Source: Desulfobulbaceae bacterium (lineage in GTDB: Bacteria > Desulfobacterota > Desulfobulbia > Desulfobulbales > SURF-16). Taken from it: a stretch of 64,000 nucleotides of DNA. Made by a program: the position numbers and the translations under genes. The stretch spans positions 1-64,000 of the forward strand of contig JAHLLM010000024.1 of assembly GCA_020444175.1 (NCBI GenBank). Reading direction: 5' to 3'. Shown one piece after another: positions 34,669 to 55,838 of this stretch (the stretch's first letter is position 1; each line of letters begins with the position of its first letter). The notes under the pieces are model-generated. The model did not search any database. It had not been told where the DNA came from and worked only from the letters and a program-made list of their open reading frames with translations.

Positions 34669-37600
34669 TCATATTTCGCCAAAAGCTGTAATCTGGGCTT
34701 CGATCTGTTCAGCTGTAAAACCACCCATGGAGATTGCAAATGTTGGGCAACGTGATGCGCAGATTCCGCAACCCTTACAGGAAGCAGCAATGGTCTCCGC
34801 CTTTCTGGCCTTGCCTATCTTTAACATCTGAATAGCCTGATAAGGACAGAGGCTTGCACATATACCGCAGCCGATGCATATATCTTTATCTATGCTTGAA
34901 ACAATTGGAGCAACAGTAACATATCCCTTGACTAGAGGAATGGAAGCCTTTGCAGCAGCAGCCTGGGCCTGAACGATTATCTCATCAAGCGGTTTGGGCG
35001 AATGGGCAAGTCCGCAGACATACACACCGTCAACTGCCAGTTCCACCGGACGCAGTTTCACATGGGCTTCAAGATAAAACTTATCATCGTTGATGGTCAG
35101 TTTCAGCATCTTGCTGAGATCTTCCGTGTCTTCGGGAACAATGCCGACACTTAAGGTAATAAGGTCAGGGTCCATGACAACATTTTCCTGAAGTATCGGA
35201 TCAAAGAAAGAGACGACAACCTTATTGCCCTTCTTGATTACTTCAGGTTTTTTATCGACATCATATGGAATAAAGACGATGCCTTTTTCACGTGCTTCCT
35301 GATATGCGTCTTCCGCATACCCGTAGGTCCGCATGTCACGATACAGAACTATTACTTGAGATTTCGGATTTATCTCTTTGATCTTAAGTGCATTTTTAAC
35401 TGCAGAGTTACAACACACCTTGCTGCAGTAATTCAGATCATCACCACGGGAACCGGCACACTGAATCATGACCACGGAGTCGGGAGCACGATTTTTACCC
35501 TTACCGGCAAGTCTGGTCTCAAGCTCCTGCTGGGTGACAACCTTCTTTACCTTCCCGAGCATGTACTTGTCGGGACGATACTCCTTGCCGCCGGTGGCTA
35601 TAATAATCACACCATGATCAATGGTCTGTTCTGTCTCTTTTTTCCCCTTCCTTGTCTTGATAACAGAAGAGAAGTTGCCGACAAAACCATTGACTGTGCT
35701 TATCTCACTGCTTGTGAGTACATCTATTTTTTTATGTTTTTCAACCCTTTTTACCAGCTCTTTCAGCATGGTTGCGGTGTTCTCACCTTTCAGGGTATTT
35801 TTCATATTTGCCAAATGACCGCCAACCTTATCATTCTTGTCAATCAAATAGCAGTGAAATCCCTGATTAGCAAGATTTTCGGCGGCAGTAAGACCGGCAA
35901 CGCCCCCACCAACGATAAGGGCCTGTGGTATTACAGGAACGGTCTGCTCGGTCAACGGCTGTATGTGCCTGGCCTTCGCAATCCCCATACGAACCAGATC
36001 CTTGGATTTGTCCGTGGCTGCCTCAGGTTCGTTGGCATGAACCCATGAACATTGATCCCGGATGTTTACCATTTCAAAAAGGGAACGGTTCAATCCAGCA
36101 TCTTTTAGAGTCTCCTGAAAGAGCGGCTCATGGGTACGTGGAGAACAGGCAGCCATGACGACTCTATTCAGCTTATGCTCTTTGATCTTTTCCTTGATGA
36201 CTTCCTGTGCATCCTGAGAGCAACTGTAAAGACTGTCGCTGAAATAGACAACATTCTTCATATCTCCTACGGATTCGACAACACCAGGAACATCTACAGT
36301 ACCGGAAATGTTAATACCGCAGTGGCATACCCAGACGCCGATACGAACCTCGTCATCCGCTGCAACAGCCTGCTCATCCGGGTATGATTTATGGACAATC
36401 CCCTTACCGCGCTGCTTTTTGATAAGTGCGGAGGCAATTCCGGCTGCTGCGCTTGACTGTGTAACGCTTTCAGGAATATCTTTTGGTCCCTGGAATGCAC
36501 CGGCGACAAAGACCCCATCCCTGCTTGAGCTCAAGGGGGTAAAAGTATTGGTATTACAGAAATCATACTTGTTCAGCTCAAAATCCGCTATTTTAGCCAG
36601 ATCCTGGGCGCTCTTGGGGGAATCAAGACCAACGGAAAGGACAACCATGTCAAAGGCATCAAAATGATGGCTTTCCTCAAGCGTTGCATAGGTCAGTTTG
36701 AGTTGTTTGCCCCAAGGCATAACGTCTGCTACTTTGGCGCGGACAAATTTGATACCAAACTGCTCTTCGGCGCGAATCCGAGTTGCATCAAAATCCTTAC
36801 CCTGTGTACGCATATCCATATAAAAAATGGTAATTTCGCACTCAGGATCATGCTCTTTGGCCACCATGGCCTCTTTAATGGCATACATGCAGCATACGGA
36901 AGAGCAGTAGCCGTTATCACAGCCTATATCGCGGGAACCGACACACTGGATAAAGGCGATCCTTTTCGGATGACGCTTATCGGAAAGACAGCGAACCTCT
37001 CCTTCAAAGGGACCTGATGGATTGAGTAGTCTTTCAAACTCAAGACTGGTGACGATATCAGGATGTTTACCGTAATTATACTTTGTCAAAGCCTCATCAG
37101 GGACCTTGCCGAAACCAGGGGACATGATGACTGCGCCGACATGCAAATCCCGCTCAACAGCTTTCTGTTTGAAATCAATGGCATGCGAACGACAGACAGG
37201 CACACAGATTTGACAGGTATCATGCTTTAAATGCAGACAGGCTGACGGATCGATAAAATAGGATGCAGGAACAGCCTGGGGATAATCAATGTGAATCGGC
37301 CTGGTAATTGCCAGTCCTTCATTATACTGATCAACCATATGACGCGGGCAGTACTGTGTACACAGTCCACAGGCAGTACACTTATCAGCGTCGATATAGC
37401 GAGGGTTCAGTTTAACTTTTGCTGTAAAATCACCTGGTTTTCCATCAAGGGAAAGAAAATCAGCGTTGCTTAAAATCTCTATATTTGGAGACCGACCGGC
37501 CTCAACTAGCTTAGGCGCCAGGATTCAGAGAGAACAGTCGTTGGTTGGAAACGTCTTGTCAAGCTGAGCCATGGCTCCACCCACAGCGGCTGATTTTTCA

Positions 37601-37850: not shown

Positions 37851-40800
37851 TTAAATTGGATCGACTACCGCAACCTTGATCGCACATAGTTTATATTCAG
37901 GGGTTCTGGAAAGACGGTCAAGGGCATCAAGGGTAAGCAGATTCACAAGCGACTCGATGTGGTTATATGTTGCGAATATAGTGCCCGGCTGACTGCGGTC
38001 GGTAATGGTTGCGCGCAATGTGACACTTCCTCTCCGTGAAGTAAGTCGAAGGGTGTCTTTCTCTTTGATGCCAAGCCGTTCGGCGTCTTCAGGATTAACC
38101 TCGGCAAAACACTCGGGGCTGATATCATCTATTTCACGGGTTTTCCCTGTCATGCTGCTGAAGTTATAACGGGCCAGATCACGACCGGTTGTAAACTGCA
38201 TAGGATACTCATCGTCGGCAAGCTCAACAGGCGGCATGTAGTCTTCCGGAATGAAAAGTCCCCTGCCCCGAGTAAAAGATTCCGTATGAAGTACTGCTGT
38301 GCCGGGATGATCCTCGTTCGGGACAGGCCACTGCAGACCTTGAATATCCAGACGTTTGTAGGTAATCCCGGCATATTGAGGCAGCAAAAGGCGAATCTCT
38401 TCAAAAATCTCTTCCGCAGAGCTGTAATTCATGTCATAGCCCATTTTTTTGGAGAGATTACAGAAGATCTGCCAGTCAGGTTTGGCTTCACCAGGAGGAT
38501 CGACAGCTTTGCGTATACGCTGGACACGACGCTCGGTGCAGGTAAAAGTACCGTCTTTTTCTGCGTAGCAGGCAGCTGGAAGAACAACATCAGCCATTTC
38601 AGCGGTTTTAGTTAAAAAGATATCCTGAACCACGACGAAATCCGCCTTTTCCAAAGCACTCTGAACATGGGAGATATTGGGATCCGCTACGGCAGGATCT
38701 TCACCAAAGATGTAAAGGCCGCGAATATCGCCGGTCATGACGTTATCCCAAACCTCGGTTGCAGGTTTACCGGGGCGACGAGGCAGTTTTACATTCCAGA
38801 GTTTTTCATATTTAGCAAAAAGATCGACGTTATCAAGGGAACCATAACCGGGCAGCGAGTTGAAAAGTGCGCCAACATCGCAGGCACCCTGAACGTTGTT
38901 CTGGCCTCGCAAGGGGTTGCAACCGCCGCCCTCAACTCCGACTTTGCCGCAAAGCATAGCCAGGTTGGCAATGCTTTTGACCCGATCAGTCCCAGTTACA
39001 TAATGGGTAATACCCATGCCATGGAATGTTGCGTGACGTCCCGGTGCGGCATACATCCGGGCAGCCTGTCGTATCTGATCGGCAGGTAGTCCTGTTATTT
39101 TTTCTACCATTTCCGGTGGATACTTCTTGGCAACCCGCTCCATCTCGTCGAAGTCTTCAGTGCGGTCCTCGACAAACTTCTTATCCCAGAGGTCCTCCTC
39201 CAGAATAACATGCATCATGGAATTGAGCAGAGCAACGTCTGTCCCCGGATTGATCCTTAACCAGAGATCAGCTCGCTCAGCGAGTTTTGTTTTACGGGGG
39301 TCTACAACTATAAGTTTTGCACCCCGGTCAACTGCCTGATGTACACGTAAACCGATAGTGGGATGACTGGTATCAGGATTGCTGCCCACCATAAAAAAGA
39401 GGTCTGTTTTTTTGGAATCCGCAATGGAATTTGTCATTGCGCCGCTGCCGAATGTAAGGGCCAAACTGGCCACAGTCGGAGCGTGTCAGAGTCGAGCACA
39501 GTGTTCGATGTTATTCGTCCCGATCACTGTTCTCATAAATTTCTGCATCAGAAAATTTTCTTCATTACTTGCTCTGGCGCATGAAAATCCCGAAATTGAA
39601 TCCGGCCCATACATGGCTTTCAAATCAAATAAATTTCTGGCAACAATTTCAAGTGCATCTTCCCAGGTTGTCTCGACGAGTTGTCCGTTGCGTCTAACCA
39701 GAGGTTTTTTAAGGCGGTTTTTATGACCGACAAAGTCATGGGCAAAGCGGCCCTTGACACAGAGTGCGCCATAGTTCGGGGCAAGATGCTCCTCAGCACC
39801 GCACACTTCCATAATCGTGTTGCCTTTGACTTTGAAAATAAGCTGACAGCCGGCACCGCAATAGGGACAGGTGGTTCGTACCTCTTTCACCTCTTCATGA
39901 ACAATGGGAACATAAGCGGCTTTTTTCTGTAACGCACCGGTTGTGCAACTTTCGGCACATTTCCCGCAATTGACACATTTGTCATTAAAGGACAGTTTTA
40001 AACCTTGGGCAGTGCCATTGTCATCAACCCGGGCAGCGGTTACTTCAAGGGCATCATATTCACAGCTGTTCATACAGGTCTGACAAAAGATACACTTATT
40101 TAAATCAACACGGATAACAGGGTGCGAATTATCTTTTTGATAAACAGGTTTCACACCCATTCCGGTTTTGTTGATATTAACATTGTATTCAATATCAAGT
40201 CGCTTCAAATCACATGAATCAAAGGCTGAACAACCACACTCAAGGCATCGCTCTGCTTCACGTCTCGCCATCTGCTCGTTAAAACCGAGTTTCACCTCAT
40301 CAAAATCCTGCGTGCAGGTTTCCGGGGGTCTTTCAGGCATCTTTTCACGCAGTTTGATATTAATACCATCAAAATTACTGAGATTAACCTGATCAAAAGA
40401 TTTACCTCGGGTGAAATTAAAACGGTTATCAGCCGGAGCTTTATCAACATCCATGATTTGCGCATGAATGTTTTCTGCTGCCCTTCTTGCGGCAACAACG
40501 GATTGTATGACTGTTCGTGTACCATTAACAGCATCACCAGCGGCATAGACTCCCAGTATTGAAGTCGTAAAATCACGGGGTGAAGCCTTAATGGTATTCT
40601 TTGGTGTAATTTCGATCGCTTCTTCGAGCTTTCCACCTTTGAACCCCTCGTAACAGGCCATTTGACCCAATGATGAGACAAGGGTATCAACATGTATGAT
40701 ATTGCTGGTGCCGGGAATAGCCTCAGGTTGTCTGTTTCCCCTTGCATCAGGCTCGCCGAGCTTCATTCTGACAAGTTCTACTGTCAGACCGGCGTCTCCA

Positions 40801-42002
40801 GGTTTACAGGCACTTGCATTGGTTCCGTCTGATTCACAAATCTGGACAGGTGAATACATAAGAAGGAACTGTACTCCTTCCTTTTCAGCTTCACGGATAA
40901 TACGCTGGTTAGCTGGCATTTCCTCCTGACTTCGAGGATAAATGATGGTCACTTCGTCGACATTTTGACGCAGCAGGGAGCGGGCAACCTCCATGGCAAT
41001 ATTATTGCCGCCGATTACAGCAGCGCGATGGCCGTAATCTCTTTTTTTGCCAACAGCGACATCTTTCAGAAAATTAGCTGCACTCAGAACCTGGGGCAGC
41101 CTGCCGCCCGGTATTTCAAGGGGCTTGTCAATACCTGCTCCGGTTGCGAGCATGATAGCGTCATAGCCTTGATCTTTGAGATCCTGAAGCGTAAAATCAA
41201 TACCCCATTTCTGGCTCAGACGTACGGAAATACCCATCCGCAAAATCATGTTCATTTCAAAATCAAGAACATCGCGTGGTATTTTATAATCAGGCAGCCC
41301 GTAGCGTAGCATTCCTCCAAGTTTCGGATTTGCCTCGAAAATGGTGACATTGTGGCCCTTTCGTGCCAAATAGAATGCTGTGGTGAGACCGGTTGGACCA
41401 CCTCCAATAACGGCTACCCTTTTTCCTGTCAGTTTTTCTCGGGGTATCTTGAGGTCAACATTATTTAACATGCACCAGTCAGCCACAAACCGTTTCAGAT
41501 GGTTGATGGAAACCGGTTCATCAACAAGAATACGACGACAGCGTGTTTCACAGAAACGTGGACATACGCGGCCAACGGAAAACGGCAAAGGGTTGCGCTC
41601 CATGACAAGGCGAAGGGCCTCTTCATACTGCCCTTTGCTTATATGAGCAATATACCCCTGTACGTTAATTTGACCTGGACAAGTGAGATTACACGGAGCC
41701 TTACAGTCGCCAAAGTGAGTTGAGGATATCAGGGCCAGTTTTTCCTGACGTACTTTTTTCAAGTCAGCAGTGTCAGTCTGGATTTTCATGCCATCCTTGG
41801 CAAGGGCAACACAGGAACGGACAGGTTCATCCATTCCATCAATTGCCACGACACACAAGCCACAAGGAACTTCACTGTTCTTGTCTTTAACTGCGCAAAG
41901 GGTAGGTATATGTATCTCTGCGCGTTTGGCAACATCAAGGATTGTCAGCCCCTGTTCGGCGACAATTTCCATGCCGTTAATTTCTAAATTTATAGTCGAC
42001 AT
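37851..42002 (-). CDS. fdhA: Selenocysteine formate dehydrogenase with fused 2Fe-2S/GltD-like domains (U839)
   Basis: 1383 aa when TGA at 39486-39488 is selenocysteine; the site reads NNIEHCARL-U-HAPTVASLA, the expected active-site position of FdhA (RxUHxxSVAGL type). Order: [2Fe-2S] domain (about 1-75), GltD-like NAD(P)H/FAD oxidoreductase (about 100-540; GGGPTGLTTAFYLARKG, GGNNIAMEVARSLL), two 4Fe-4S ferredoxin sites (about 635-690; CIFCQTCMNSC, CVNCGKC), then the molybdopterin part with CPYCGAGC (712-719) and MGITHYVTGTDRV, GQNNVQGACDVG and NYSSAEEIF. It reduces CO2 to or oxidises formate, and the fused domain suggests NAD(P)H as partner. Neighbouring hdrA/mvhD suggest a shared complex. 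No Shine-Dalgarno sequence is visible before the ATG. Confidence 0.95.
39459..39471 (-). promoter_or_regulatory. Candidate SECIS hairpin of fdhA
   Basis: Minus strand GGCCA-GTT-TGGCC: perfect 5-bp stem, GUU loop beginning 20 nt after the UGA. It shares the CCAGTTTGG tip with the SelW-like and mvhD elements. Confidence 0.82.
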
Positions 42003-42194: not shown

Positions 42195-43547
42195 CTAGTT
42201 TGACGGCTTCCACTCTTTCAGAAAAGCTGGTAAATGACCGGCTTCACGCGGACCAATGGTAATAGTCCAATCCGGTAATTCCTCTTCGAGTTCGCCTTTA
42301 ATACTTGCCAGATATCCAGGTATGATTAAATCGCGGTGTTTCACCTTATCAAGTATCCCGGACTTATTAATAAACTGCGCTATAAGGTCAGCACCAAATT
42401 TACCGGCTGCCCATGCTGTGAGGACAGAAAGTCCTTCAGTATCCTTGATAAGCAGCCAGGATGGAACCTTGCTTCCTTCAATTTCACCGGACACAATAAA
42501 ATAGGTCAGCGAGAAGTTACAGGTAATGAGCACGGGTGAATTCTCATCCGGACCATTAATATTGTAAATATCTTCCTGGACAACCATAGGTCTTTGAGGA
42601 TCAGTAAAGATATTAAGCTGCTCCAGTAAAAGCGGGAAGAGGATGTCTCCCTGAAGATCGGAAAGAACGACAATTCCGGCATATTTTGCAATAAGCACGG
42701 AAGCAATCATTGCCTCCATCATTGGATCATCGGTCATTTCACAGGGAAATGTGATGGTAGGAAATCCGAGCGGCTTAAACTTTGTCTTGATGGCGGCACG
42801 ACGGGATACGACATGATCTTCAAGAGCAGCACGTAATGTCCGCGCACCTGAATCAATGACAAGATCCTTAAGACCGGCAGCCTGAAGTTTCTCAGACAAC
42901 TCAACAGTGCCGTCAAGATTTGTACCTCGAAGCCCCAGAACGCATCCGGACTCTTTGGCAACAGATGCCATATCATCGGCATTGTCCATGGTGGCGCCAT
43001 AAAGCAGCGGCTTGCGATCACCACAGGTCTTTGCGCCGGCAGCAAGGTTGTCTGCCTTATCACTCATAAGAATGATGTTAGCATCGCAATTGTCCAGAAC
43101 CTTTTGAATAAGAGCTGTAAATTTGCCCTGATCACCTGCACTGTCTTTGATGGCAATGAAATCAGCCTGCATCATCACGCCAACACGTTCATAACGAAGA
43201 GTCTTAAAGCGTTCGATACGGCCATCGACATCAGCATCAGACATTTCAGTAGTGGTCAATACGGCTAAACCGGTGGGATTCTCAAATCTTTTTTCATGAC
43301 GGAAAAGACAGGTTTCACCACCAGTTGTAAACTGTGTGTCACCAGCACCGATTTTGATAGTTCTAATTGGCGGAGCGGATGCTTCACCTATTGTTGCCTT
43401 GGCCTCATCAGTTACATAAGGACATTTTTCAATCTCAGCCTGACCGGCAGCAACTTTCATGGCAAAGGCAAGGCAAGTGGGAATCCCGCACTCCCCGCAA
43501 TTCTTTTTGGGAAGCATCTTTAGGATTTGTATACCAGTGAGAGCCAT
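42195..43547 (-). CDS. acsC: Corrinoid/iron-sulfur protein large subunit (CFeSP gamma)
   Basis: 450 aa, the normal length. N-terminal 4Fe-4S motif NCGECGIPTCLAFAMKV with C17, C20, C25 and C42. Then a TIM-barrel-like body (IIKIGAGDTQFTTGGE region, VLNLRGTNLDG and SGARTLRAALE) and the C-terminal B12-interaction region with IVPGYLASIKGELEEELPDWTITIGPREA. With AcsD it carries the methyl group from methyl-THF to acetyl-CoA synthase on a corrinoid. It begins 53 nt after acsB; Shine-Dalgarno AGAGGAG. The usual methyltransferase AcsE is not in the window. Confidence 0.95.
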   Translation of the reverse strand: MALTGIQILKMLPKKNCGECGIPTCLAFAMKVAAGQAEIEKCPYVTDEAKATIGEASAPPIRTIKIGAGDTQFTTGGETCLFRHEKRFENPTGLAVLTTTEMSDADVDGRIERFKTLRYERVGVMMQADFIAIKDSAGDQGKFTALIQKVLDNCDANIILMSDKADNLAAGAKTCGDRKPLLYGATMDNADDMASVAKESGCVLGLRGTNLDGTVELSEKLQAAGLKDLVIDSGARTLRAALEDHVVSRRAAIKTKFKPLGFPTITFPCEMTDDPMMEAMIASVLIAKYAGIVVLSDLQGDILFPLLLEQLNIFTDPQRPMVVQEDIYNINGPDENSPVLITCNFSLTYFIVSGEIEGSKVPSWLLIKDTEGLSVLTAWAAGKFGADLIAQFINKSGILDKVKHRDLIIPGYLASIKGELEEELPDWTITIGPREAGHLPAFLKEWKPSN

Positions 43548-43600: not shown

Positions 43601-45805
43601 CTACATAGCTGTTTCCATTTCAAGGGCGGGATGACCTTTTTCTTTCAAGAATGCAAGGACTTCCTCTTCAGTGGTGCCCACTTCCTCATCTGCAATCATA
43701 TCGAAAAGTTCCGGCATCCCGATTGCTTCACAACGAGCCATCAATTTTTCCTTGAGCTCCTCTTTCAGCATCTTGGGAAGCCATACAACCCTTTTCAAAC
43801 CACCTTCAGCCATAAAAAGCTTGGCACTGGTCAGAAAATGTTTACTGACCCCCATAAATCCAGGTGTTTGAGCACCACCGCCTGCCATACCGGCAAGAGA
43901 GGTGAATTTCATTCCACTTGGGGTCATTCCCATATAATCACGATTAACAACCATGATTCCGTTACACTGGGGCAGCATGGCAGCAATTGCCTCAAAGCAG
44001 CCACAGGCAGTCATCGGGTTTGTCATTAGCGAATAACAGCTCACCTCCGGAACAGCACCCCGGGATGCCTGATTGACAAATTCATTAATACCGGCAAAAT
44101 CTCCCAAAATTTCGTCAAGGCACTCGCCCTTTTCAATTGGCTGATTCGGGCCGGTTGGATTTATCTGAAATGATGCTTTTCCATCAAGCCAGTTATATGC
44201 ACCGCACATGCCGACCCGTTCCGGGGTGATAACGCAAACATGGCTGGGAGCAAAAGACTGGCACAGGGTACAGGAGTAGAAAACCTCTTCCGTTTCGTCG
44301 GTCATGCTGCCGAGACGTTTGTCACGTTCCTCATAAACGTCTCTTGCAAGTGCCTGTACTTCTTCTACTTTTTCCTGGATTGTATAAATCTTGACCTGAA
44401 CTTTATCGAGAATGGCACCAAACTCCTGATGCAGCTTACCGTGCAGAACTTTACCGATATGCTTGAAGGAAAATCCTTTTTCAACAGCCGCCTTACCGAT
44501 ACGGACCCACATGATATTACGCTGACCGATATGCATGATACCCTGAATATAGTTGATCAGATGGTGAAATTGGCGCTCAAGAATCGGTTCGAAATCAGAC
44601 TGCATCTCTCGGCCCGCAACCTCGACAAGAATGGCAATGGGCAGGTTCTCACCTTGTTCGATATCGCAGATATCTTTACCCTCGAGAATAACTTCTCCAT
44701 CAGTGACTTCAGTCATGTCTTTGGAGACAAGCACCTCGACGCCGCTTGTGCGGCCACCGCCACATTCCATAAAGAGATCGTCTTTCCTGATACGCTCACC
44801 CTCAAAGGCAGGTCCAAAAGACATGGGAATATCAATTTTTGCAATATTGACTTTCAAGCCGCGAACCTCAATGGCTTTCTGGACAATTTCCTCATGGGGC
44901 ACGTTACTCACAACATGTTCATAGGTACAGATACCAGTGGGAAGCACTTCCGGAATATCATAATCAGATATGGTCGGGAAACCCCAGTTAATAGCTCCGG
45001 CTGCATTGGCGTACCACTCGTCGCTTACCGGCCCGAAAGCCATGACGAAGGCAAAGGTTCTGTCTTTGTTGTAAATGAGATTTCCTTTATAATCACCAGG
45101 CTTAATGCCACCAAAGGCCATGGCGACACGACAGGCAAAACCAATGGCAAATACTGCGGTGGTATAGCTGTTACCAAAGGGAACAAGACGGGTATTCCAC
45201 CCTACCTGAACATTGTTGCTGACGAGCTGATCAGGCATGGTGGTGCCATTTGACTGGTCATGCATGAAGATATAAAGATTTTTTTCCTGCAGTTCCAGGG
45301 CAATCTTGCTGGCCATTTCCTTATCCTGGGGAGAGCCCATGATGGCTGCAAATCCAGGTGCTGTTCCGTCAACGAACTCAACGCCACGTTTACGGAAGAT
45401 GACATCATCTGCAGCGCCAAGCCACAAATTGGAATCTGTAGGATCTTCAGTTTTGGTATAATATTCAGGCTGCTCCAAATAACGAATGACCTCGTACATT
45501 TCCTCTGCAAAGAAAGTAGCCATTCCAGCATCAAGGGCAGGAGCAAGATAGGGAAGCCATACATTATCAGATACGATTTCCGGCAGCAGTTTTCTGCATT
45601 CCTGAAAAATATCCTTCATGTCCCCTATTTTTTCGACCTTGGCACCCAGCATGCTGTAAATAACCGGTAAAAAATAGGCAGTATTGGGAAAGGCTACTTC
45701 CTGCTCAGCGCCATATTTTTTTAACGCCGCCTCATATTTTTCTTCAGCCATATCCACGATTTTATGAGCACCCCGGATAGCAGCTGAACATATTATTTTA
45801 GACAT
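43601..45805 (-). CDS. acsB: Acetyl-CoA synthase (alpha subunit, A-cluster)
   Basis: 734 aa, typical of the bacterial enzyme. The A-cluster ligands are all present: C512, C515, C524 and C534 (CTLCQSFAPSHVC ... GMCGAYNW) hold the cubane, and C601-G602-C603 in MTACGCFEAI the distal Ni site; this is the Moorella ligand set shifted by six residues. It condenses CO, a methyl group from CFeSP and CoA to acetyl-CoA, or does the reverse. Shine-Dalgarno AAGGAGA. Placed between the metF-acsD fusion and acsC. Confidence 0.97.
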   Translation of the reverse strand: MSKIICSAAIRGAHKIVDMAEEKYEAALKKYGAEQEVAFPNTAYFLPVIYSMLGAKVEKIGDMKDIFQECRKLLPEIVSDNVWLPYLAPALDAGMATFFAEEMYEVIRYLEQPEYYTKTEDPTDSNLWLGAADDVIFRKRGVEFVDGTAPGFAAIMGSPQDKEMASKIALELQEKNLYIFMHDQSNGTTMPDQLVSNNVQVGWNTRLVPFGNSYTTAVFAIGFACRVAMAFGGIKPGDYKGNLIYNKDRTFAFVMAFGPVSDEWYANAAGAINWGFPTISDYDIPEVLPTGICTYEHVVSNVPHEEIVQKAIEVRGLKVNIAKIDIPMSFGPAFEGERIRKDDLFMECGGGRTSGVEVLVSKDMTEVTDGEVILEGKDICDIEQGENLPIAILVEVAGREMQSDFEPILERQFHHLINYIQGIMHIGQRNIMWVRIGKAAVEKGFSFKHIGKVLHGKLHQEFGAILDKVQVKIYTIQEKVEEVQALARDVYEERDKRLGSMTDETEEVFYSCTLCQSFAPSHVCVITPERVGMCGAYNWLDGKASFQINPTGPNQPIEKGECLDEILGDFAGINEFVNQASRGAVPEVSCYSLMTNPMTACGCFEAIAAMLPQCNGIMVVNRDYMGMTPSGMKFTSLAGMAGGGAQTPGFMGVSKHFLTSAKLFMAEGGLKRVVWLPKMLKEELKEKLMARCEAIGMPELFDMIADEEVGTTEEEVLAFLKEKGHPALEMETAM

Positions 45806-45845: not shown

Positions 45846-48506
45846 TTAGGCCATCAGGCTTTTGATAAGAGATTTCGCAAGATTTATTGCTTTGGGATGT
45901 CTCATAATCATAACCTCACCACCTGCAAGAAGCATACATGTTGCAGTAATGGCCTCCATCATGACTCCACGTCGTTCCTGATCTCCAATCAAGGCATCAG
46001 AAGGGAGCCGACATTCCTTGGCTTTCCAGACTTCACGGCCAAGGTTACAAATAATCGGAACCTGAAGTTTTTCGTCCTGCTGGGTAAGCGCTGCTATGCG
46101 AATACGTTCCATAACGGAATATGTATACTCAATACCATATCCCAATGCTCCGATAGATGGATCCATCATCACTGAATCAAGGGAAACACCCAGGTTTTCC
46201 AGAAGAATATTAAGCTGTTTTGCCAGGTTGACATCAATTGGCGAAGCCGCAACCATAGGATGCTGGAAAGCCATGGCCGTAGCACCGAGAGAACGGTAAT
46301 TTCCGTCGGAAAGGGGTGCCAGACATACTTTTTTATCCCCAACAAGCGAGGTTACTTCCCTTAATGTTTCCGTATCCTTTTCAGCATTACCACAGCCCCA
46401 GAGAATAACCGGCACATCTATATTATTTACAACATCGGCCGCAGTTTTTGCCGCCTCAGCTGCAGCACGGTTTAAACCATTGGGGTCGGTGCTTACCAGA
46501 GAAATGCAGATTGCCTCTGCCTGGTAGTCATTAATACATTTCTGAGCCCAGGCCACAGGATTATCCATAACACCTTCAAAATGACGGGTCAGAGTCTCGG
46601 GCCATTCATCTGGAACGATATCAAGGATATCCATGGCAATGACGGGTTTATTGGGCATTGCACCTTCAAAGAGGTAGAAAGGAAGCGATTCTTCACCACC
46701 TACGGTGAGTGCCGTATCACCACTGCCAAGCACTGTCTCTTTAATGGAACCGCTATATTTTACGCTGTATGAATCAGCAGGTACTTTCGTTGCACGCTCA
46801 GCCAGTGGAGTTTTCTCAACCGCGAGATCGGCGGCGGCAAGATCGCCGGCTGGGGCTGCTGCCGGAGCAGCTTTTGGGGCCTCTTCTGCAGCCTTAGCTT
46901 CAGCGGCCTTTTTGGCTTCTTCGGCGACCTTAGCTTCAGCAGCTTTTTTAGCTTCCTCGGCGGCCTTTGCTTCAGCTACCTTTTTGGCTTCTTCAGCGGC
47001 CTTTTTGGCCTCCTCGGCGGCCTTAGCTTCAGCGGCTTTTTGGGCTTCTTCAGCAGTCTTTGCTTCAGCGGCCTTTTTGGCCTCTTCGGCAGCCTTAGCT
47101 TCAGCGGCTTTTTTGGTTTCCTCAGCAGCGCTGTCTGAAGGAGCAGGAGTTACCGGTGCAGCAGCAGCGGGTGCTGGTGTTGCGGATGAAGGTGCCTGCT
47201 CTGGTGGTTGACGTTTCAAGACCGCTTCAGCACCAGCAAAATTTGCAAGCGCTTCAAATTGATCATCGGTCAGATTAAAAGCCTTTCTCAGGGCATCAAG
47301 TCCCATTTGCACAGACTGCAAGGCTATCTGGCGTTCTTTTTCGTTCATCTCATGCTCTCCTGCATCATCATTATCTGTTGCTAAGCCGGCTGTAGTTGAA
47401 GGAGCAGATTCAGACCGCATCTTTTCAACCTCAGCACGGGCTGCGGCAATAATTTTTTCCGCCTCTGCTTTCGCTTCTGCCAGAAGCTTATCAGCATCCG
47501 TACGATCTCCAGCTTCGACTCTTTTTTCGGTTGCAGGTGTTGCAACTTCGATTACCTCATCGGCAACCTCAACTTTACTATCATCATCAAGAACCGGACG
47601 ATCGGAAAGGCCGGCACGCTTCACTATTTCAGCGACAGCTTCCTCCCATTCGATTGCCATGATATGAACACCGGCAACGCCTTCGATTTCTTTTACCCGG
47701 TTGATGACATCGACACAAATGTTAATACCTTCGTCCTGTTTATCAGTGGCATCTTTCATTCGTTGAATAACATCATCTGTCACATCCATGCCCGGCACGA
47801 ATTTTTTCATATAACGGGCCATGCCGAGAGATTTCGGAGGAGTAACACCTGCGAGAATGTATGCATTTTCGTGGATACCGAGATCCCTGACCATTTCCAT
47901 AAATTTTGCAAATTTATCTACGTTGTAAATGATCTGGGTTTGAACAAAATCGGCTCCATTTGCTATTTTTTTGGCAAGTCTGGGAGCACGAAACTCAAAG
48001 GGGTTGGCAAAGGGGTTGGCAGCACAGCCTAGAAAAAGTTTTGGCTCAGCCGATTTTATAGATTCACCACACTGGAAGACCTTATCATCCCGCATCGCAC
48101 GAACCATGCCGAGGAGCTGTATGGAATCCATGTCAAAAACCCCCTTTGATCCAGGGTGATTACCGAACTTCTGGTGATCACCCGTAAGGCACAGGAGATT
48201 TTTCAGTCCTAGAGCTGAGGCTCCAAGTATATCGCTTTGCATCCCTATCCTGTTTCTATCACGACAGGTCATCTGGATAACAGGCTCAACGCCTTCCTGC
48301 AAAGTAATAAGACCGGCAGCTATACTTGACATTCGAACAATAGCAGTCTGGCAGTCAGTAATATTGACAGCATCGACATGGCCTTTCAATATTTTTGCTT
48401 TCTTCCTGACTACTTCCGGATCACTGTTTTTAGGCGGTCCCAGCTCACCGGTTACCGCAAATTTTCCGGAGGCCAGAATTCTTTCTAAACGACTTCCCGA
48501 TTTCAT
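45846..48506 (-). CDS. MetF-AcsD fusion: methylene-THF reductase plus CFeSP small subunit
   Basis: 886 aa. Residues about 1-300 are a MetF-type TIM barrel: FAVTGELGPPKNSDPEVV, LLCLTGDHQKFGNHPGSKGVFDMDS, FVQTQIIYNVDKF and AGVTPPKSLGMARYM. A linker (about 300-460) follows, with helices and Pro/Ala stretches. Residues 461-543 are an AEEAKKAAEAKA-type repeat. Residues about 575-886 are AcsD, the CFeSP beta subunit: YSVKYSGSIKETVLGSG, VIAMDILDIVPDEWPETL, VILWGCGNAEKD, VMMDPSIGALGYGIEYTYSVMERIRI and GDQERRGVMMEAITATCMLLAGG. Neither half looks truncated, so it could pass the methyl branch product directly into the corrinoid step. No stop or start separates the domains. Confidence 0.93.
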   Translation of the reverse strand: MKSGSRLERILASGKFAVTGELGPPKNSDPEVVRKKAKILKGHVDAVNITDCQTAIVRMSSIAAGLITLQEGVEPVIQMTCRDRNRIGMQSDILGASALGLKNLLCLTGDHQKFGNHPGSKGVFDMDSIQLLGMVRAMRDDKVFQCGESIKSAEPKLFLGCAANPFANPFEFRAPRLAKKIANGADFVQTQIIYNVDKFAKFMEMVRDLGIHENAYILAGVTPPKSLGMARYMKKFVPGMDVTDDVIQRMKDATDKQDEGINICVDVINRVKEIEGVAGVHIMAIEWEEAVAEIVKRAGLSDRPVLDDDSKVEVADEVIEVATPATEKRVEAGDRTDADKLLAEAKAEAEKIIAAARAEVEKMRSESAPSTTAGLATDNDDAGEHEMNEKERQIALQSVQMGLDALRKAFNLTDDQFEALANFAGAEAVLKRQPPEQAPSSATPAPAAAAPVTPAPSDSAAEETKKAAEAKAAEEAKKAAEAKTAEEAQKAAEAKAAEEAKKAAEEAKKVAEAKAAEEAKKAAEAKVAEEAKKAAEAKAAEEAPKAAPAAAPAGDLAAADLAVEKTPLAERATKVPADSYSVKYSGSIKETVLGSGDTALTVGGEESLPFYLFEGAMPNKPVIAMDILDIVPDEWPETLTRHFEGVMDNPVAWAQKCINDYQAEAICISLVSTDPNGLNRAAAEAAKTAADVVNNIDVPVILWGCGNAEKDTETLREVTSLVGDKKVCLAPLSDGNYRSLGATAMAFQHPMVAASPIDVNLAKQLNILLENLGVSLDSVMMDPSIGALGYGIEYTYSVMERIRIAALTQQDEKLQVPIICNLGREVWKAKECRLPSDALIGDQERRGVMMEAITATCMLLAGGEVMIMRHPKAINLAKSLIKSLMA
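46878..47126 (-). repeat. Ala/Lys/Glu heptad-like repeat linker within metF-acsD
   Basis: About 83 residues made of near-perfect repeats of KKAAEAKAAEEA, coding for a long helical, TolA-like rod between the two domains. DNA repeats are equally strong and copy number may vary between strains. The AT/GC balance is unlike the flanking domains. Confidence 0.85.
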
Positions 48507-48568: not shown

Positions 48569-50560
48569 TTATTTGGCAGGTCCGGCGCAGCCGACATCAT
48601 GAAGGCCGCCCCCACCGAGATCACGACGCATCTCCATATCAAAGAGCACCCTTTCACGTTTTTTATCAATGCCAAGCTCTGCTCTTTTCTTGTCAATATG
48701 AGCAATCATTTTCTGGGCAAGTTTGACTGGATCTTCTTCAATATCCCAGCGACCGCCATAGATATCTTCCATTTCTTCCATCATGAACTTGGAAAATTTC
48801 TTGGAACCGGTCATTGGCAGGTTCTGAAAAACAACGTAGGCACCGCTTGAAACAAAGTACTGGCCAATGGCCACAGCCTTCTCACTCATCCACAAAGGGG
48901 CTGTCCCGGCCAGAGGCAGGTCGGAAATATCATCTCCGAGTCCACCTTCTTTGACCATTGCCGTAGCTGCAATGAGAAGACGGCTGTTGTCAACGCAGGA
49001 GCCGCAATGGAGGACAGGAGGCATACCGACGGTTTCACATACTTCAGCAAGTCCGGGCCCGGCATATTGAACTGCTTCAGGACGCAGAAGGCCTACACGA
49101 CCAAGTCCTGTGGCGGCGCAACCTGTGGCAAGGACGAGTACATCATTCTTAATGAGCTCGCGGGCAATGATCTCATGATGGTTATCCGGCATTTTGTAAT
49201 TGTCACAACCGACTATTGCCGCCACACCTCTTATCCTGCCGTTAATGATATTATCATTGAGTGGACGATAACTACCACGGAAACGACCACCAAGCATATA
49301 GTTAATAGTTTCATGACTGAAACCGACAACCACATCAAACTTTGTTTCCTCGGGAATAAAGAAATCACCTCGTTTTTTATAATTGGCAATGGCCTTTTTC
49401 AAGATTTCCTTGGCGCTTTCCAGCGGTGTTTCTTCTTCAAACTGAATATGAACGGCATCGGGCATCTTGGCTCGATAGTTTGTTGTAATAATATCAGTAT
49501 GGAATGACTTGGCAACTTCAGCAACAGACTGCATGACACACTGGACATCTACAACCATGGCCTCGATGGCGCCTGTGGCTAAGGCCATTTCCTGCTGAAC
49601 GAAACCGGCCGCAACAGGAATGCCGCGACGCATAAGAATTTCGTTACCCGTACAACACACACCGGCGAGGTTAATTCCTTTGGCACCGACCTTCTTGGCC
49701 AAAGCAAGAATTTCCTCGTCCTGGGCGGCAAGGCAAAGTGCCTCTGCAAGCAGTGGCTCATGGCCATGAACGGTGACATTGACCTGATCATGTTTCAACA
49801 CACCAAGATCGACAATTGCTCTTCTGGGAACAGGTGTACCGAACATGATATCGGTAAGATCTGTGGAAAGCATGGATGAACCCCATCCATCACCAAGGGC
49901 ACAACGTGCACCTTGTAGCATGATATTGTGATATTCCTGATCAACGCCCATATGGGTACGATGCATCATCTCAACAACTTCTCGGTCAATACCACGTGGC
50001 TCAACCCCGAGTCGTTTCCAGAGCTCCTGGCGTTTCTTCGGAGCCCGTTTGAGCATGGTCACAGGTGTGTCATCCTGCTTGCCGAAATCAGCCAGAGCCA
50101 ACTCACCGATCTCCAGGGCGATCTCGTTTTTATCTTTGCCTTCCGTATCAACGCCAAATATCTCAGCAAGTTCCATGAGCTTGTTTTCATCTTTAATCTC
50201 ATGGGGGCCGTGACCTTTTGCCGTTTCAATAAACCCTTTTACCATTTCACGGGCATGATCTGTATGTGCTGCAGAACCGCTTGCAATAGTGCGGGCGAAA
50301 TTACGTGCAGCAACCGTATCAGCTGTGGCGCCGCAAATACCGATCATTTCGTCCACGCCATCGATAATCTGGCACGGACCCATATTACAGTTGCGGCAGC
50401 ATGTACCTGTTGACCCAAAAAGACAGGCTGACATACCCCTTGCTTTTACGCGATCATAGGCAGTAATAACTGTTTTTGCCAGATCCTTGGAAAGGACATC
50501 CTTGGTGGATGTACAGGTAATTTCAGTGCAGCCTTCACATCCGTTTCTTGAGATTGCCAT
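48569..50560 (-). CDS. cooS: Ni-dependent CO dehydrogenase catalytic subunit
   Basis: 663 aa, AcsA/CooS family. N-terminal metal motifs CEGCTEITC and CLFGSTGTCCRNCNMGPCQI supply the B- and D-type clusters. The C-cluster region contains HGHEPLLAEAL, GVCCTGNEIL, IVGCDNYK, CAATGLGRVG, HCGSCVDNSRLL and the C-terminal FMMEEMEDIYGGRWDIEEDPV. It oxidises CO or reduces CO2, and together with AcsB makes acetyl-CoA. Shine-Dalgarno GGGAG. No cooC accessory gene is within the window. Confidence 0.96.
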   Translation of the reverse strand: MAISRNGCEGCTEITCTSTKDVLSKDLAKTVITAYDRVKARGMSACLFGSTGTCCRNCNMGPCQIIDGVDEMIGICGATADTVAARNFARTIASGSAAHTDHAREMVKGFIETAKGHGPHEIKDENKLMELAEIFGVDTEGKDKNEIALEIGELALADFGKQDDTPVTMLKRAPKKRQELWKRLGVEPRGIDREVVEMMHRTHMGVDQEYHNIMLQGARCALGDGWGSSMLSTDLTDIMFGTPVPRRAIVDLGVLKHDQVNVTVHGHEPLLAEALCLAAQDEEILALAKKVGAKGINLAGVCCTGNEILMRRGIPVAAGFVQQEMALATGAIEAMVVDVQCVMQSVAEVAKSFHTDIITTNYRAKMPDAVHIQFEEETPLESAKEILKKAIANYKKRGDFFIPEETKFDVVVGFSHETINYMLGGRFRGSYRPLNDNIINGRIRGVAAIVGCDNYKMPDNHHEIIARELIKNDVLVLATGCAATGLGRVGLLRPEAVQYAGPGLAEVCETVGMPPVLHCGSCVDNSRLLIAATAMVKEGGLGDDISDLPLAGTAPLWMSEKAVAIGQYFVSSGAYVVFQNLPMTGSKKFSKFMMEEMEDIYGGRWDIEEDPVKLAQKMIAHIDKKRAELGIDKKRERVLFDMEMRRDLGGGGLHDVGCAGPAK

Positions 50561-50579: not shown

Positions 50580-51467
50580 TTATATGAGACCGGCAGCCTG
50601 TTTTGCAGCCTGCACGGTGTTTTTCATTAACATGGTGATCGTCATGGGACCAACTCCACCAGGAACAGGTGTAATGGCCGCTGCTTTATCTTTAACTGAA
50701 TCAAAATCAACATCACCAGCCAGAATTGCCTTGCCGCTTTCACTCATGCCGATACGATTCACACCAACATCAATAACAACAACGCCGTCTTTAACCATAT
50801 CAGCGGTGATCATCTTCGGCACACCTGCAGCAGCAATGATAATATCTGCGCGCTTGGTATGAGCTGTCATATCTTTTGTGCGTGTATGACAGATTGTGAC
50901 GGTTGAGTTACCCGCTTCACGTTTCTGAAGCATGAGATTAACCATGGGTTTACCAACGATATTACTGCGCCCAACAACGACGACCTCAGCACCACTTGTC
51001 TCAACTCCAGCGCGGATCAGAAGCTCAAGGACGCCATGGGGAGTACAGGGAAGGAAGCACTGCTCGCCAAGAACCATTTTCCCGACATTAACCGGATGAA
51101 ACCCATCAACGTCTTTTCCAGGATCAATAGCATAAAGCACTTTCCCCTCATCAATATGTTTCGGCAGAGGCAACTGAACAAGAATACCGTTAATCTTGTC
51201 ATCCTTGTTGTACTTGTCAATCATTGCCAGAAGGTCTTTTTCACTTGTATCAGCATCAAGAGTGACCTGCTCGGAGTGGATACCCAGTGCATGGGCTGTT
51301 TTATTTTTTGCACTGACATAAGATTGGGAAGCAGGATCTTCACCGACAAGAATGGTGACCAGTCCCGGCACAACATTATGTTTTTCCTTTAACTCGGCAA
51401 CTTCTACTTTGAGTTCTTCACGAATGGCTTTAGCGGTTTCGGTGCCGCTGATGATTTTTGCTGTCAT
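50580..51467 (-). CDS. folD: FolD: methylene-THF dehydrogenase / methenyl-THF cyclohydrolase
   Basis: 295 aa. YVSAKNKTAHALGI contains the catalytic Tyr/Lys pair (YxxxK); GILVQLPLPKHID; PCTPHGVLELL; the Rossmann motif VVVGRSNIVGKPM; DVGVNRI near the end. It serves two steps of the methyl branch, between Fhs and MetF. The ATG at 51467 is preceded by GGAG 5 nt upstream; a GTG six bases earlier is inferior. 19 nt before cooS. Confidence 0.96.
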   Translation of the reverse strand: MTAKIISGTETAKAIREELKVEVAELKEKHNVVPGLVTILVGEDPASQSYVSAKNKTAHALGIHSEQVTLDADTSEKDLLAMIDKYNKDDKINGILVQLPLPKHIDEGKVLYAIDPGKDVDGFHPVNVGKMVLGEQCFLPCTPHGVLELLIRAGVETSGAEVVVVGRSNIVGKPMVNLMLQKREAGNSTVTICHTRTKDMTAHTKRADIIIAAAGVPKMITADMVKDGVVVIDVGVNRIGMSESGKAILAGDVDFDSVKDKAAAITPVPGGVGPMTITMLMKNTVQAAKQAAGLI

Positions 51468-51582
51468 TATCACTCCTTATGCAATAAAATACGTAAGTGA
51501 ATTGAGGTGAATATAGATAAAGTATTGTGTTCGCTGAGACTTGCTGGGAAAGAGCAAATGAAAAAGCAAAACTGAACTAAAT

Positions 51583-51693: not shown

Positions 51694-53910
51694 TTACCGA
51701 GATCGACTCTCCGCAAGTTTCACAATAATATCATTTGCCTGTCCAAGTCGGCTGACAAGGGTGGCAAAAAAATGTTTCGCAACATTAGGATGTTTTTCGA
51801 TAATCTCCATAATCTTATCGCCCGGGTAGCGTTTGACAGTAGAGCGTCCCTTGGAAAGAATGGAGGCTGAACGCGGTACACCGGATATAGCTGACATTTC
51901 GCCGAAATACTCGTAAGGCTCCGTTATTTCGGCAATTTTCTTACCATCCTTAACAACCATCAAGCCGCCCTGAATAAGCTGAAAAAAATCAATATCCTTA
52001 TTGCCCTGACGTATGATGACATCCCCGTCCTCATACTTTTCAACATCAGGATTAACCAGGTAGGCCGGGAGACTTTCTTCGGTTACAACAGTTCTGCGCA
52101 TCACCTCGTCAAGGCTTGTTATGCCTTGTATCGCCTTCTTGATGGCAGCATTGCGCAAAGGCACCATACCTTCCTGGATTGCCACTTTACGCAACTGGTC
52201 TTCAGGAACCTCGGCACCGATAGCCTTGGCAACCTCATCGGTCACCTCCATGAGCTCAAAGAAACCAACCCTGCCCTTATAGCCGCCACCGCGACAGACA
52301 GGACACCCTTTGGGACCATAAAGCTCAAGACCTTCAATCTGTTCTTCGCTAAACCCAAGTCCCAGCAACTCGCGCGCTTCAGGAACATCGACCTTGAGTT
52401 TACACTCAGGACACAGCCGTCTTCCCAGGCGCTGCGATTGAATCATAGTCACCGAAGAGGCAAGCATATACGGCGGTATACCAATATCAGTTAGACGCCC
52501 TATTGTCGCAGGGCAGTCATTGGTATGTAGGGTTGAGAAAACAAGATGACCGGTCATGGCTGCCTTAATGGCAATTTCCGCGGTTTCCATATCACGAATC
52601 TCACCAACCATGATAATATCCGGATCCTGACGCAGAAAGGCTTTCAAAGCAGCGGCAAAGGTCATGCCCACTTCCTGGTGCACGTTGACCTGGTTTATAC
52701 CTTTAAAGTTAAACTCCACGGGATCTTCAGCAGTAAGAATCTTGGTATCTTCACTGTTTAATGAGTTCAGTGCGGAATAAAGGGTAACCGTTTTACCACT
52801 ACCCGTGGGACCGGTGACAAGAACAAGCCCCTGGGGAAGTTTCAGGCAACGCTGCAAAGCGGCAAAGGTCTCAGGCTCAAAACCAAGCTTGGTAAGGTCG
52901 ACATTTAAAGAAGCTTTATCAAGAATACGCAGAACAATACTTTCACCAAACAGGGTCGGCAAACTGGAAACACGAAAATCGACAACCTTGTTTCGACCTA
53001 TACGCATTTTAATCCTGCCGTCTTGAGGGACGCGACGCTCAGTAATATCAAGACTGGCAAGAATCTTCACCCTGGAGTTCAGCGCATTTTTGATGCTGAG
53101 CGGCAGATTCATGGATTTAAAGAGAGAACCGTCCAGACGATAGCGCACCTGCAATGATTTTTCATAGGGTTCTATATGAATATCACTGACGCCATCCTTG
53201 ACCGCCTTTATCAGGATACCGTTAACAAGCTTGATAATAGGCGCGTCGGAGGCGGAAAACTCCTCAGGACTGTCCATTGAATCCGTCTCGATGGCCATTT
53301 CATCAGCAGCTTCGGAAGCAAGAGAACCAAAATCGTCAATACTGGTTACCTCTTCTTCTTCTTCGTATTCCTGCTCTACGGCACCTGTCAGTTCTTTGTA
53401 TTCCTCATCACTGATTTGATAATATTTTTTATAGGCCTCATAAATATCCTTTTCCGTTGAAACACAGATAGACAGGACCATTTTCAGTTCAGCCTGCAAT
53501 TCCTCAACGGCCATGGTATCCGTAGGCTCGGCCATGGTAATCTGCAGGGTATTGCCTGTCATGCGCAGAGGAAGAGCGCAATATTTTTTGACTTTATCAA
53601 AAGGAATGGTTTTAAAAACTTCGAGATTAGGTGGTTCCTGTTTAATATCAACGGGTGGGAAGTTATGAATGCGGCTTAAGACATTGATAATTGTCGTGTC
53701 TTCAATAAAACCGAGCTTAAGGAGGATAGAGCTGAGCCTTTGACCGGATTTCTTCTGTATGGAGACCGCTTCTTCAAGCTGACTATTAAGTAAATGCCCT
53801 TCTTTCCTGAGAATTTCTCCAATCTTAACTTTGCCGGCACCGGACTGATCTTTGACCGTGGACCTTAATGAGGATTTTTTATCTGCAATTTTTTTCGCTG
53901 CAAAGGCCAT
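51694..53910 (-). CDS. PilB/GspE-type ATPase with C-terminal cyclic-nucleotide-binding domain
   Basis: 738 aa. Two MshEN-like N-terminal domains (about 26-165), an acidic linker (about 175-215), secretion ATPase core with Walker A GPTGSGKT (367-374), Asp box ILTAEDPVEF, Walker B DIIMVGEIRD, His box LHTND, and the C4 zinc site CPEC (500-503) with CPVC. It then has an unusual extension, about 622-715, that is a cNMP-binding beta barrel: DVIIRQGNKDIDFFQLIQGGLMVV and the phosphate-binding cassette FGEMSAISGVPRSAS, which is intact. It could link pilus or secretion motor activity to a cyclic nucleotide. No other pilus gene lies nearby. Confidence 0.92.
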   Translation of the reverse strand: MAFAAKKIADKKSSLRSTVKDQSGAGKVKIGEILRKEGHLLNSQLEEAVSIQKKSGQRLSSILLKLGFIEDTTIINVLSRIHNFPPVDIKQEPPNLEVFKTIPFDKVKKYCALPLRMTGNTLQITMAEPTDTMAVEELQAELKMVLSICVSTEKDIYEAYKKYYQISDEEYKELTGAVEQEYEEEEEVTSIDDFGSLASEAADEMAIETDSMDSPEEFSASDAPIIKLVNGILIKAVKDGVSDIHIEPYEKSLQVRYRLDGSLFKSMNLPLSIKNALNSRVKILASLDITERRVPQDGRIKMRIGRNKVVDFRVSSLPTLFGESIVLRILDKASLNVDLTKLGFEPETFAALQRCLKLPQGLVLVTGPTGSGKTVTLYSALNSLNSEDTKILTAEDPVEFNFKGINQVNVHQEVGMTFAAALKAFLRQDPDIIMVGEIRDMETAEIAIKAAMTGHLVFSTLHTNDCPATIGRLTDIGIPPYMLASSVTMIQSQRLGRRLCPECKLKVDVPEARELLGLGFSEEQIEGLELYGPKGCPVCRGGGYKGRVGFFELMEVTDEVAKAIGAEVPEDQLRKVAIQEGMVPLRNAAIKKAIQGITSLDEVMRRTVVTEESLPAYLVNPDVEKYEDGDVIIRQGNKDIDFFQLIQGGLMVVKDGKKIAEITEPYEYFGEMSAISGVPRSASILSKGRSTVKRYPGDKIMEIIEKHPNVAKHFFATLVSRLGQANDIIVKLAESRSR

Positions 53911-54074: not shown

Positions 54075-55838
54075 TTAGAAAACGCCTTTTACTTTACCTG
54101 TTTCAACGTCGACATCCACCCGGCGGTACGCAGGATCAGAAGCCGTACCAGGCATCAGACTGATCGCCCCGGCAACGGGAACAACAAAACCGGCACCTTT
54201 ATAGGTGAGAATATCACTGATCGGCAGAGTCCATCCTTTGGGTGTGCCTTTCAGTTTAGGATCGTGGGACAGTGAGAGATGTGTTTTCACCATACAGGTC
54301 CCCATCTCTTTCATTTCCGGATCAGCTTCCATGCGTTTCAGTTTGGCCTGAGCGTCTGGAGTGTAGCTGACACCGTCTGCGCCATAAACCTCTTTGGCGA
54401 TAAGATCAATGCGTTCGTTGAGAGGTGTATCCAGGTCATAGAGGAATTTGAAATCGTTTTCTTCTTCACAGGCATCAACAACAGCATCTGCAAACTCAAG
54501 AGCACCGTCCCCACCATGCTCCCAGTGACGGGACAGGGCAACCCTGGCACCTGCAGATTCGCCAAGGCGACGGACAGCTGCAATCTCTGCGTCCGTATCA
54601 GTATAAAAAGCATTGATACAAACAACAGGATTGATACCGGCCTTTTTAACTGTTTCAATGTGATGAATGAGGTTTTTACAGCCTTCTTCAACCCAACCGA
54701 CATTTTCTTTACCATACTCTTCAGGCATTGGTTTTCCTGGTACGGGAATGGGTGCACCGCCATGACATTTAAGAGCACGGATGGTGGCAACAACAACCGC
54801 ACAGTTTGGTTTGAGCTTGCTGTAACGGCATTTGAGATTCCAGAATTTTTCAAAACCGATATCAGCACCGAAACCACTCTCGGTTACGTTATAGTCTGCT
54901 ATTTTCAGGGCAACACGGTCAGCAATAACTGATGACTGACCAATGGCGATATTGGCGAAAGGACCGGCATGAACAACAACAGGCTGTCCTTCAAGGGTCT
55001 GCATGAGGTTTGGATTCAAGGCCTCAACCATCCAGGCGGTCATGGCGCCGTCGACTTCCAGATCGGCGGTGGTAATCGGCCGATCCTGCTTGTCATAAGC
55101 GACCACAATTTTACCGATACGTTCACGCATATCTCTTAAGTCGGTGGCAATGGAAAGAATAGCCATGATTTCGGAGCTAACTGCGATGGCAAACTTGGAC
55201 TGCATTGTGTATCCGTCCATTTTGCCACCAATGCCGATGGTGATATTACGCAGTGCCTGGGCACAGAAATCGATGATCCAACCGAACTCAACTTTTTTCG
55301 GGTGGATGTCAAGACGTTTAAGATTTCTCTTTGCCAGCTGTTCGTCAGTGTAGTTGTTTTCATGCTGCATACGGGAAGTAAGAGCAACCATACCCAGGTT
55401 GTGGGCATTCATGATGGCGTTAATGTCACCGGTAAGTCCCAGAGAGAAAGGGGTAAGTGGAATGCACTGGGCCAGACCGCCGCCAGCAGCACTTCCCTTG
55501 ATGTTCATTGTAGGACCACCGGAAGGCTGGCGAATGGCACCGACGACACTTTTATTCCTTTTGCCAAGTCCCTGAACAAGACCCATGGCGCAGGTACTTT
55601 TTCCCTCGCCAAGGGGCGTTGGAGAAATAGCGGTCACATCGACATATTTTCCATCAGGCCTGTCTTTTAACCGATCAAGAATTTTACGGTAGTCGAGTTT
55701 GGCAACGTAGTGGCCATGGGGCAGGAGCTCTTCCTTGTCAAGGCCGAGCTTCTCACCGAGCTCATATACCGTTTTCATGTTTTTTTCAGCGTCTTCAGCA
55801 ATTTCCCAATCAGCATGTTTGGTTGGATCAAGAGCCAT
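54075..55838 (-). CDS. fhs: Formate-tetrahydrofolate ligase
   Basis: 587 aa, slightly longer than the common ~557 because of an N-terminal addition. ATP/phosphate-binding loop [15 protein letters not shown], followed by [52 protein letters not shown] and [15 protein letters not shown]. It converts formate to 10-formyl-THF, the step between FdhA and FolD. It is its own transcription unit as judged by the strong terminator downstream. Shine-Dalgarno AAGGAG. Confidence 0.97.

Follow-up and report, generated by a model that had tools for sequence, protein, structure and literature searches.

Why an enzyme that produces methyl-THF and the small subunit of CFeSP should be encoded as a single polypeptide, and whether the two are always made together, are the questions raised by the metF-acsD fusion gene at 45846..48506 (-) of the window, the 64,000-nucleotide stretch of Desulfobulbaceae DNA analyzed here. 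The gene begins with ATG and runs without an internal stop codon to encode a long product of 886 aa and 94.6 kDa, comprising a MetF domain (residues 1-305, 47592..48506 (-)), a linker (residues 306-579, 46770..47591 (-)) and the CFeSP small subunit AcsD (residues 580-886, 45849..46769 (-)). That both domains reside in one polypeptide, as a sequence-only reading had proposed, is confirmed by this open reading frame and by Pfam and AlphaFold fold matches for each of them.

The two enzymes and their pathway

The N-terminal domain is an MTHFR. PF02219 matches residues 6-299 (E 7e-40, 137.6 bits against a cut-off of 24) over profile positions 1-287 of 287, that is, the whole domain. In the AlphaFold model of the fusion, which has a mean pLDDT of 80.6 with both barrels mostly above 90, the MetF part is a TIM barrel resembling Thermus MTHFR 8eac (TM 0.82) and other structures. 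The residues of the MTHFR active-site motifs (the Glu of ExxPPK, the Asp of GD and the Gln of TQ) correspond to Glu21, Asp110 and Gln191, which are invariant in 60 aligned fusions and align to Thermus MTHFR; we take their catalytic roles to be those of the E. coli enzyme. The C-terminal domain matches the CdhD/AcsD family PF03599 at residues 591-831 (E 2e-44, 152 bits, far above the cut-off) and the NCBIfam model PRK04452.1-2 with 375.8 bits (cut-off 280); its score against the WLP_AcsD model is 313, under the cut-off of 430. Its modeled structure is close to the CFeSP small subunit 2h9a_B (TM 0.95 by target).

Both halves have known counterparts. The MetF of acetogens and sulfate reducers, as found in MetFV and MetFV-HdrABC-MvhD, shares its family and active-site motifs with the fused MetF, but those described are separate proteins, whereas here MetF is the N-terminal part of AcsD. 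In relatives, the fusion MetF is encoded directly behind hdrA-hdrC-mvhD-metV. Likewise, the AcsD proteins of PDB entries 2h9a, 4djd and 9fzy have approximately 40% identity to the fused AcsD (TM 0.89-0.95), but are only about 310-323 aa long, whereas the fused AcsD is preceded by MetF and a 274-aa linker.

The surroundings of the gene are those of the Wood-Ljungdahl pathway. In the window, the fusion lies between cooS/acsA, encoding CO dehydrogenase (48569..50560 (-)), and acsB, encoding acetyl-CoA synthase (43601..45805 (-)), followed by acsC, which encodes the CFeSP large subunit that partners AcsD (42195..43547 (-)), and formate dehydrogenase. Upstream are fhs, encoding formate-THF ligase (54075..55838 (-)), and folD (50580..51473 (-)). 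The first three neighbors were assigned by profile matches and the last two by Pfam; the partners AcsC, acetyl-CoA synthase and CO dehydrogenase are all encoded together with the fusion. The formate dehydrogenase region (37851-42002 (-)) consists of two ORFs that form one gene through an in-frame TGA (ARL-U-HAPTV), which is probably a selenocysteine codon, and adjoins an HdrA-like flavin/iron-sulfur protein (34669-37338 (-)), HdrC, MvhD and MetV being encoded on another contig. Between folD and fhs lies an ORF (51694-53910 (-)) that resembles a type II secretion/pilus ATPase and has a cyclic-nucleotide-binding-like C-terminus; a relative of it adjoins folD in 16 other loci.

A search of the genome found no second AcsD besides the fusion, which consequently must supply the CFeSP. 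Two further MTHFR genes are present, one of which is a bifunctional homocysteine methyltransferase/MTHFR, and the fused MetF therefore probably serves the Wood-Ljungdahl pathway alone. The sequence-only reading saw neither MetV nor AcsE, which holds within the window but not for the genome. A whole-genome search located MetV, the partner of a MetFV-type reductase, behind HdrC and MvhD on contig C90, and AcsE, which is required between MetF and CFeSP, together with the CFeSP activator AcsV on contig C20, apart from the fusion; absence of MetV and AcsE from the organism is thereby ruled out. In other lineages metV adjoins the fusion. The usual order outside the window's clade is cooS-hdrA-hdrC-mvhD-metV-[metF-acsD]-acsB-acsC-acsE-fdh, whereas in the clade it is folD-cooS-[metF-acsD]-acsB-acsC-fdh, indicating that metV and acsE moved away in this clade.

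Distribution and origin of the fusion

The domain-order search that the sequence-only reading had suggested recovered both domains, in the same order and within a single open frame, in at least 39 genomes out of 395 from the phylum, representing 14 families (counted from the match table); within the window's order, every genome that yielded the protein, 10 in total, has the fusion. A second collection comprises 79 named loci, from Desulfobulbaceae, Desulfurivibrio, Desulfocapsa, Thermodesulfatator, Thermosulfurimonas and similar groups. Altogether, 78 distinct complete fused proteins were extracted, many from independent assemblies. The repetitive linker DNA is hard to assemble, and two loci (L069 and L072) are gapped there, which could suggest that assembly artificially joined two genes. 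The apparent frame splits in these two loci are not real, as they coincide with runs of N in the linker, and the intact fusions include those of one-contig genomes such as G195, G204 and G128. Given their number and distribution, an assembly artefact as the source of the fusion is ruled out, with a probability so small as to be negligible.

In FastTree phylogenies, fused AcsD domains group together as a single clade apart from the unfused ones (support 1.0). The fused MetF domains do likewise (0.94), and their sister is the unfused MetF of family f53 (0.99), in the tree that leaves out distant paralogues; a paralogue-rooted tree nested unfused MetF inside the fused, but this rooting was deemed unreliable. 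Because the fused AcsD and MetF are each monophyletic, a single fusion event is likely, most simply one between neighboring genes of a Wood-Ljungdahl operon. Family f53 has the same gene order, metV-metF-acsD-acsB-acsC-acsE, with metF and acsD as separate adjacent genes. At L127:7019-9118 (+), metF and acsD are separate, adjacent genes that share a reading frame but are divided by stop codons, an arrangement that possibly pictures the pre-fusion state. At L124:10126-12564 (+), AcsC and the methyltransferase AcsE are themselves fused in one 812-aa ORF beside a MetF-AcsD fusion. The shortest fusion (L125 and L126) has a 761-aa frame with a 118-aa linker and no convincing internal start; in these loci, an ORF with weak CooS and HdrC matches lies upstream of metV.

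Both domain families are already known, as are in-frame internal starts, but no earlier description of a MetF-AcsD fusion was found in the open literature searched. This agrees with the initial impression that the fusion is not a standard arrangement. A paper on the evolution of the pathway in Desulfobacterota treats AcsD without mentioning a fusion (PMC12827605). In the Thermosulfurimonas dismutans genome, TDIS_1006 is listed as an MTHFR, with AcsE (TDIS_1009) three genes and formate dehydrogenase four genes further on (PMC4911364); this is the position expected of the fusion, and we infer that TDIS_1006 is one. For Candidatus Desulfobulbus rimicarensis DR15, two metF genes and no metV are listed and the fusion is unmentioned (PMC7117923), yet the DR15 record contains it (L073).

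The linker and its predicted internal start

The 274 residues of the linker comprise a helix (residues 336-366), a hairpin (389-431), a proline/alanine stretch, an A/K/E rod (463-534) and a short segment leading into AcsD. The repetitive helical linker of about 83 residues initially described is real as an A/K/E stretch, but is only part of this three-part linker. The first helix (AEAKAEAEKIIAAARAEVEKM; 47409..47501 (-)) is predicted as such and is likely to form a coiled coil. The rod (46905..47120 (-)), approximately 72 residues predicted as a single helix, is encoded by 36-bp tandem repeats; at 1.5 angstroms per residue, a helical rod of 72 residues spans about 110 angstroms. The helical hairpin (47214..47342 (-)) shows the strongest conservation within the linker, being recognizable even in fusions with otherwise quite different linkers, and is predicted with a pLDDT of about 94-96 when modeled alone. 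It is known only from MetF-AcsD fusions: across the 198 genomes searched, every occurrence lay within a fusion, with a single copy per genome, and a Pfam search yielded no confident name for it. Linker length varies between 223 and 360 aa in the window's clade, and linker composition varies beyond it, with TPR repeats in some other fusions and Val/Lys/Glu or Pro/Glu/Lys repeats in those of the Thermodesulfobacteria type.

Rods are not restricted to the fusions. Unfused AcsD proteins of several Desulfobacteria families (L177-L181, L192-L198) have a C-terminal extension of approximately 200 aa, consisting of a P/A stretch, an A/K/E rod and a short conserved tail. As in the fusion, a charged A/K/E-rich rod is thus attached to AcsD, but at the opposite, C-terminal end, and it finishes in the conserved tail instead of MetF. 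Such rods seem to recur as an accessory to AcsD, and MetF to be just one of the elements attached to them. These long unfused proteins (520-590 aa) were rejected as an ancestor of hairpin-rod-AcsD, because they are extended at the C-terminus and have no hairpin.

Immediately ahead of the hairpin, the sequence is GCA GGA GAG CAT GAG ATG AAC GAA, which places a Shine-Dalgarno site, AGGAGAG (47355..47361 (-), within codons Ala382-Gly383-Glu384, anti-SD pairing -7.4 kcal/mol), ahead of an in-frame ATG at Met387 (47346..47348 (-)). Translation from this codon is predicted to yield a short product, hairpin-rod-AcsD, of 500 aa and 52.8 kDa (45846..47348 (-)). The motif Gly-(Glu/Asp)-x-x-Met is found at this site in all 51 fusions of the window's clade, with an invariant Met, a set that was itself chosen by this motif but is monophyletic without any other fusion inside it (1.0 in the AcsD tree, 0.967 in the MetF tree), so that no sampled member of the clade lacks it.

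The conservation extends to codon choice. Gly383 is encoded by GGA in 51/51, although GGA accounts for 15% of the Gly codons in these genes; the next most uniform of 41 conserved Gly columns in the same alignment has 63% of one codon, and the next best of 135 conserved four-fold columns reaches 86%, with the preferred GCC. The Ala382 codon is GCA or GCG in 44/44, versus 33% elsewhere. In the control genes AcsB, CooS and AcsC of the same genomes, no Gly column exceeds 81%. Four-fold third-position identity between sequence pairs averages 37%, and among 40 representatives no pair reaches 55%; synonymous sites are thus close to saturated, and common ancestry fails to account for the codon pattern. 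The Shine-Dalgarno site and start codon are therefore conserved beyond what the protein sequence requires. Around the Met387 ATG, GC3 drops from 0.57 to 0.25-0.38 and the mRNA is almost unfolded (-4.2 versus -11.3 kcal/mol). Anti-SD pairing of -7.0 kcal/mol or stronger is found at 98% of Met387-type sites versus 2.7% of 1511 other internal Met codons, and the main start pairs with a strength similar to that of the internal site. SD-like strings are common in Glu/Ala-rich linkers, but without such codon-level conservation. These marks at Met387 strongly support a predicted translation start, and from their conservation in the linker some AcsD would be expected to lack MetF. Very probably, then, two proteins arise from the gene, a MetF-AcsD of 95 kDa and a hairpin-rod-AcsD of 53 kDa.

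Some Thermodesulfobacteria-type and TPR-type fusions also have an SD-like site before an in-frame ATG, but the signal is weak, and it is absent in some, indicating that an internal start is not needed for every fusion. The candidate starts of the TPR type (GAGGAGGC..ATG near residue 375) are suggestive only, as Glu-Glu codons easily yield SD-like strings. In bacteria and phages, in-frame internal starts are known to produce two proteins with a common C-terminus from one gene, and the two products of one phage endolysin assemble 1:5 (PMC11005335, PMC9430671). The fusion differs from these cases in that the enzyme belongs to central carbon fixation and the part omitted is a whole second enzyme.

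A proposed tethering arm and its alternatives

We consider it probable that the fusion arose once and is read from two starts, that CFeSP exists in two forms, and that these assemble via the hairpin, with the arm serving as a tether. Translation from the first ATG would produce MetF-hairpin-rod-AcsD, and translation from the linker ATG with its own Shine-Dalgarno site would, in the window's clade, produce hairpin-rod-AcsD alone. As AcsD and AcsC together form CFeSP, one kind of CFeSP would bear a reductase on a long helical arm and the other would not. The hairpin, which would be common to both products, is an obvious candidate for joining them; long and short products may thus enter mixed assemblies, with assembly through the hairpin itself being our guess. 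It is plausible that the linker tethers the reductase to CFeSP. Such an arm would keep the producer of methyl-THF near CFeSP, AcsE and acetyl-CoA synthase. Where relatives carry hdr, mvhD and metV genes ahead of the fusion, the arm would additionally connect the complex with the electron-bifurcating reductase. A kinetic benefit of the fusion is again a guess. The idea of the sequence-only reading that a tether could channel methyl groups is more speculative than tethering as such; the methyltransferase AcsE, a protein of its own in this genome and no part of the fusion, has to act between the two domains.

Other readings of the same features have to be considered. Intragenic SD-like sites have been proposed as ribosome pause sites, and the one in the linker could be a programmed pause that gives MetF time to fold ahead of linker and AcsD synthesis, with one product only. 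Its location about 80 residues past MetF, when that domain would already be out of the ribosome, suits this idea. A pause, however, requires neither a start-spaced ATG nor a two-sided GC3 dip nor unfolded mRNA, all of which are present, and the Met is invariant in the clade, although the same hairpin occurs in TPR-type fusions without it. We hold a pause to be improbable. Cleavage of the long protein in the linker, releasing separate MetF and AcsD after synthesis, is more doubtful still, to the point of being very unlikely: the AlphaFold model contains extended low-confidence linker stretches that might accommodate it, but the linker showed no conserved cleavage motif, its conserved elements being the hairpin and the translation start.

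It is quite possible, even if we lean against it, that the fusion has a purely structural or dosage role, fixing the ratio of the two enzymes or co-localizing them at synthesis, with the linker merely spacing two unrelated and uncoupled barrels. The long and variable linker of the clade, the separate location of AcsE and the rod on AcsD of other groups that lack MetF are all consistent with this notion, and an internal start would itself suggest dosage control. Conversely, a conserved hairpin unique to the fusions and the retention of the fusion in 14 families suggest more than dosage. The tethering arm may also be extended to a broader proposal, which we offer tentatively as falling a little short of even: the internal start would give a set fraction of CFeSP its own reductase on a helical arm via the fusion-specific hairpin, the resulting flexible methyl-branch assembly would link the MetFV-Hdr electron-bifurcating reductase to acetyl-CoA synthase, and A/K/E rods at either end of AcsD would be a general tethering device in the phylum.

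If the two-start, tethered fusion is real, a single protein would tie the methyl branch of the Wood-Ljungdahl pathway to its carbonyl branch, in bacteria many of which subsist on carbon dioxide close to the limit of available energy. Ordinary annotation cannot show the second product predicted from the gene, and the fusion may be named as one enzyme only, so that AcsD or MetF may seem to be missing or duplicated. Several groups of sulfur-cycling bacteria carry, in one protein, the enzyme that makes the methyl group and the subunit that carries it onward.
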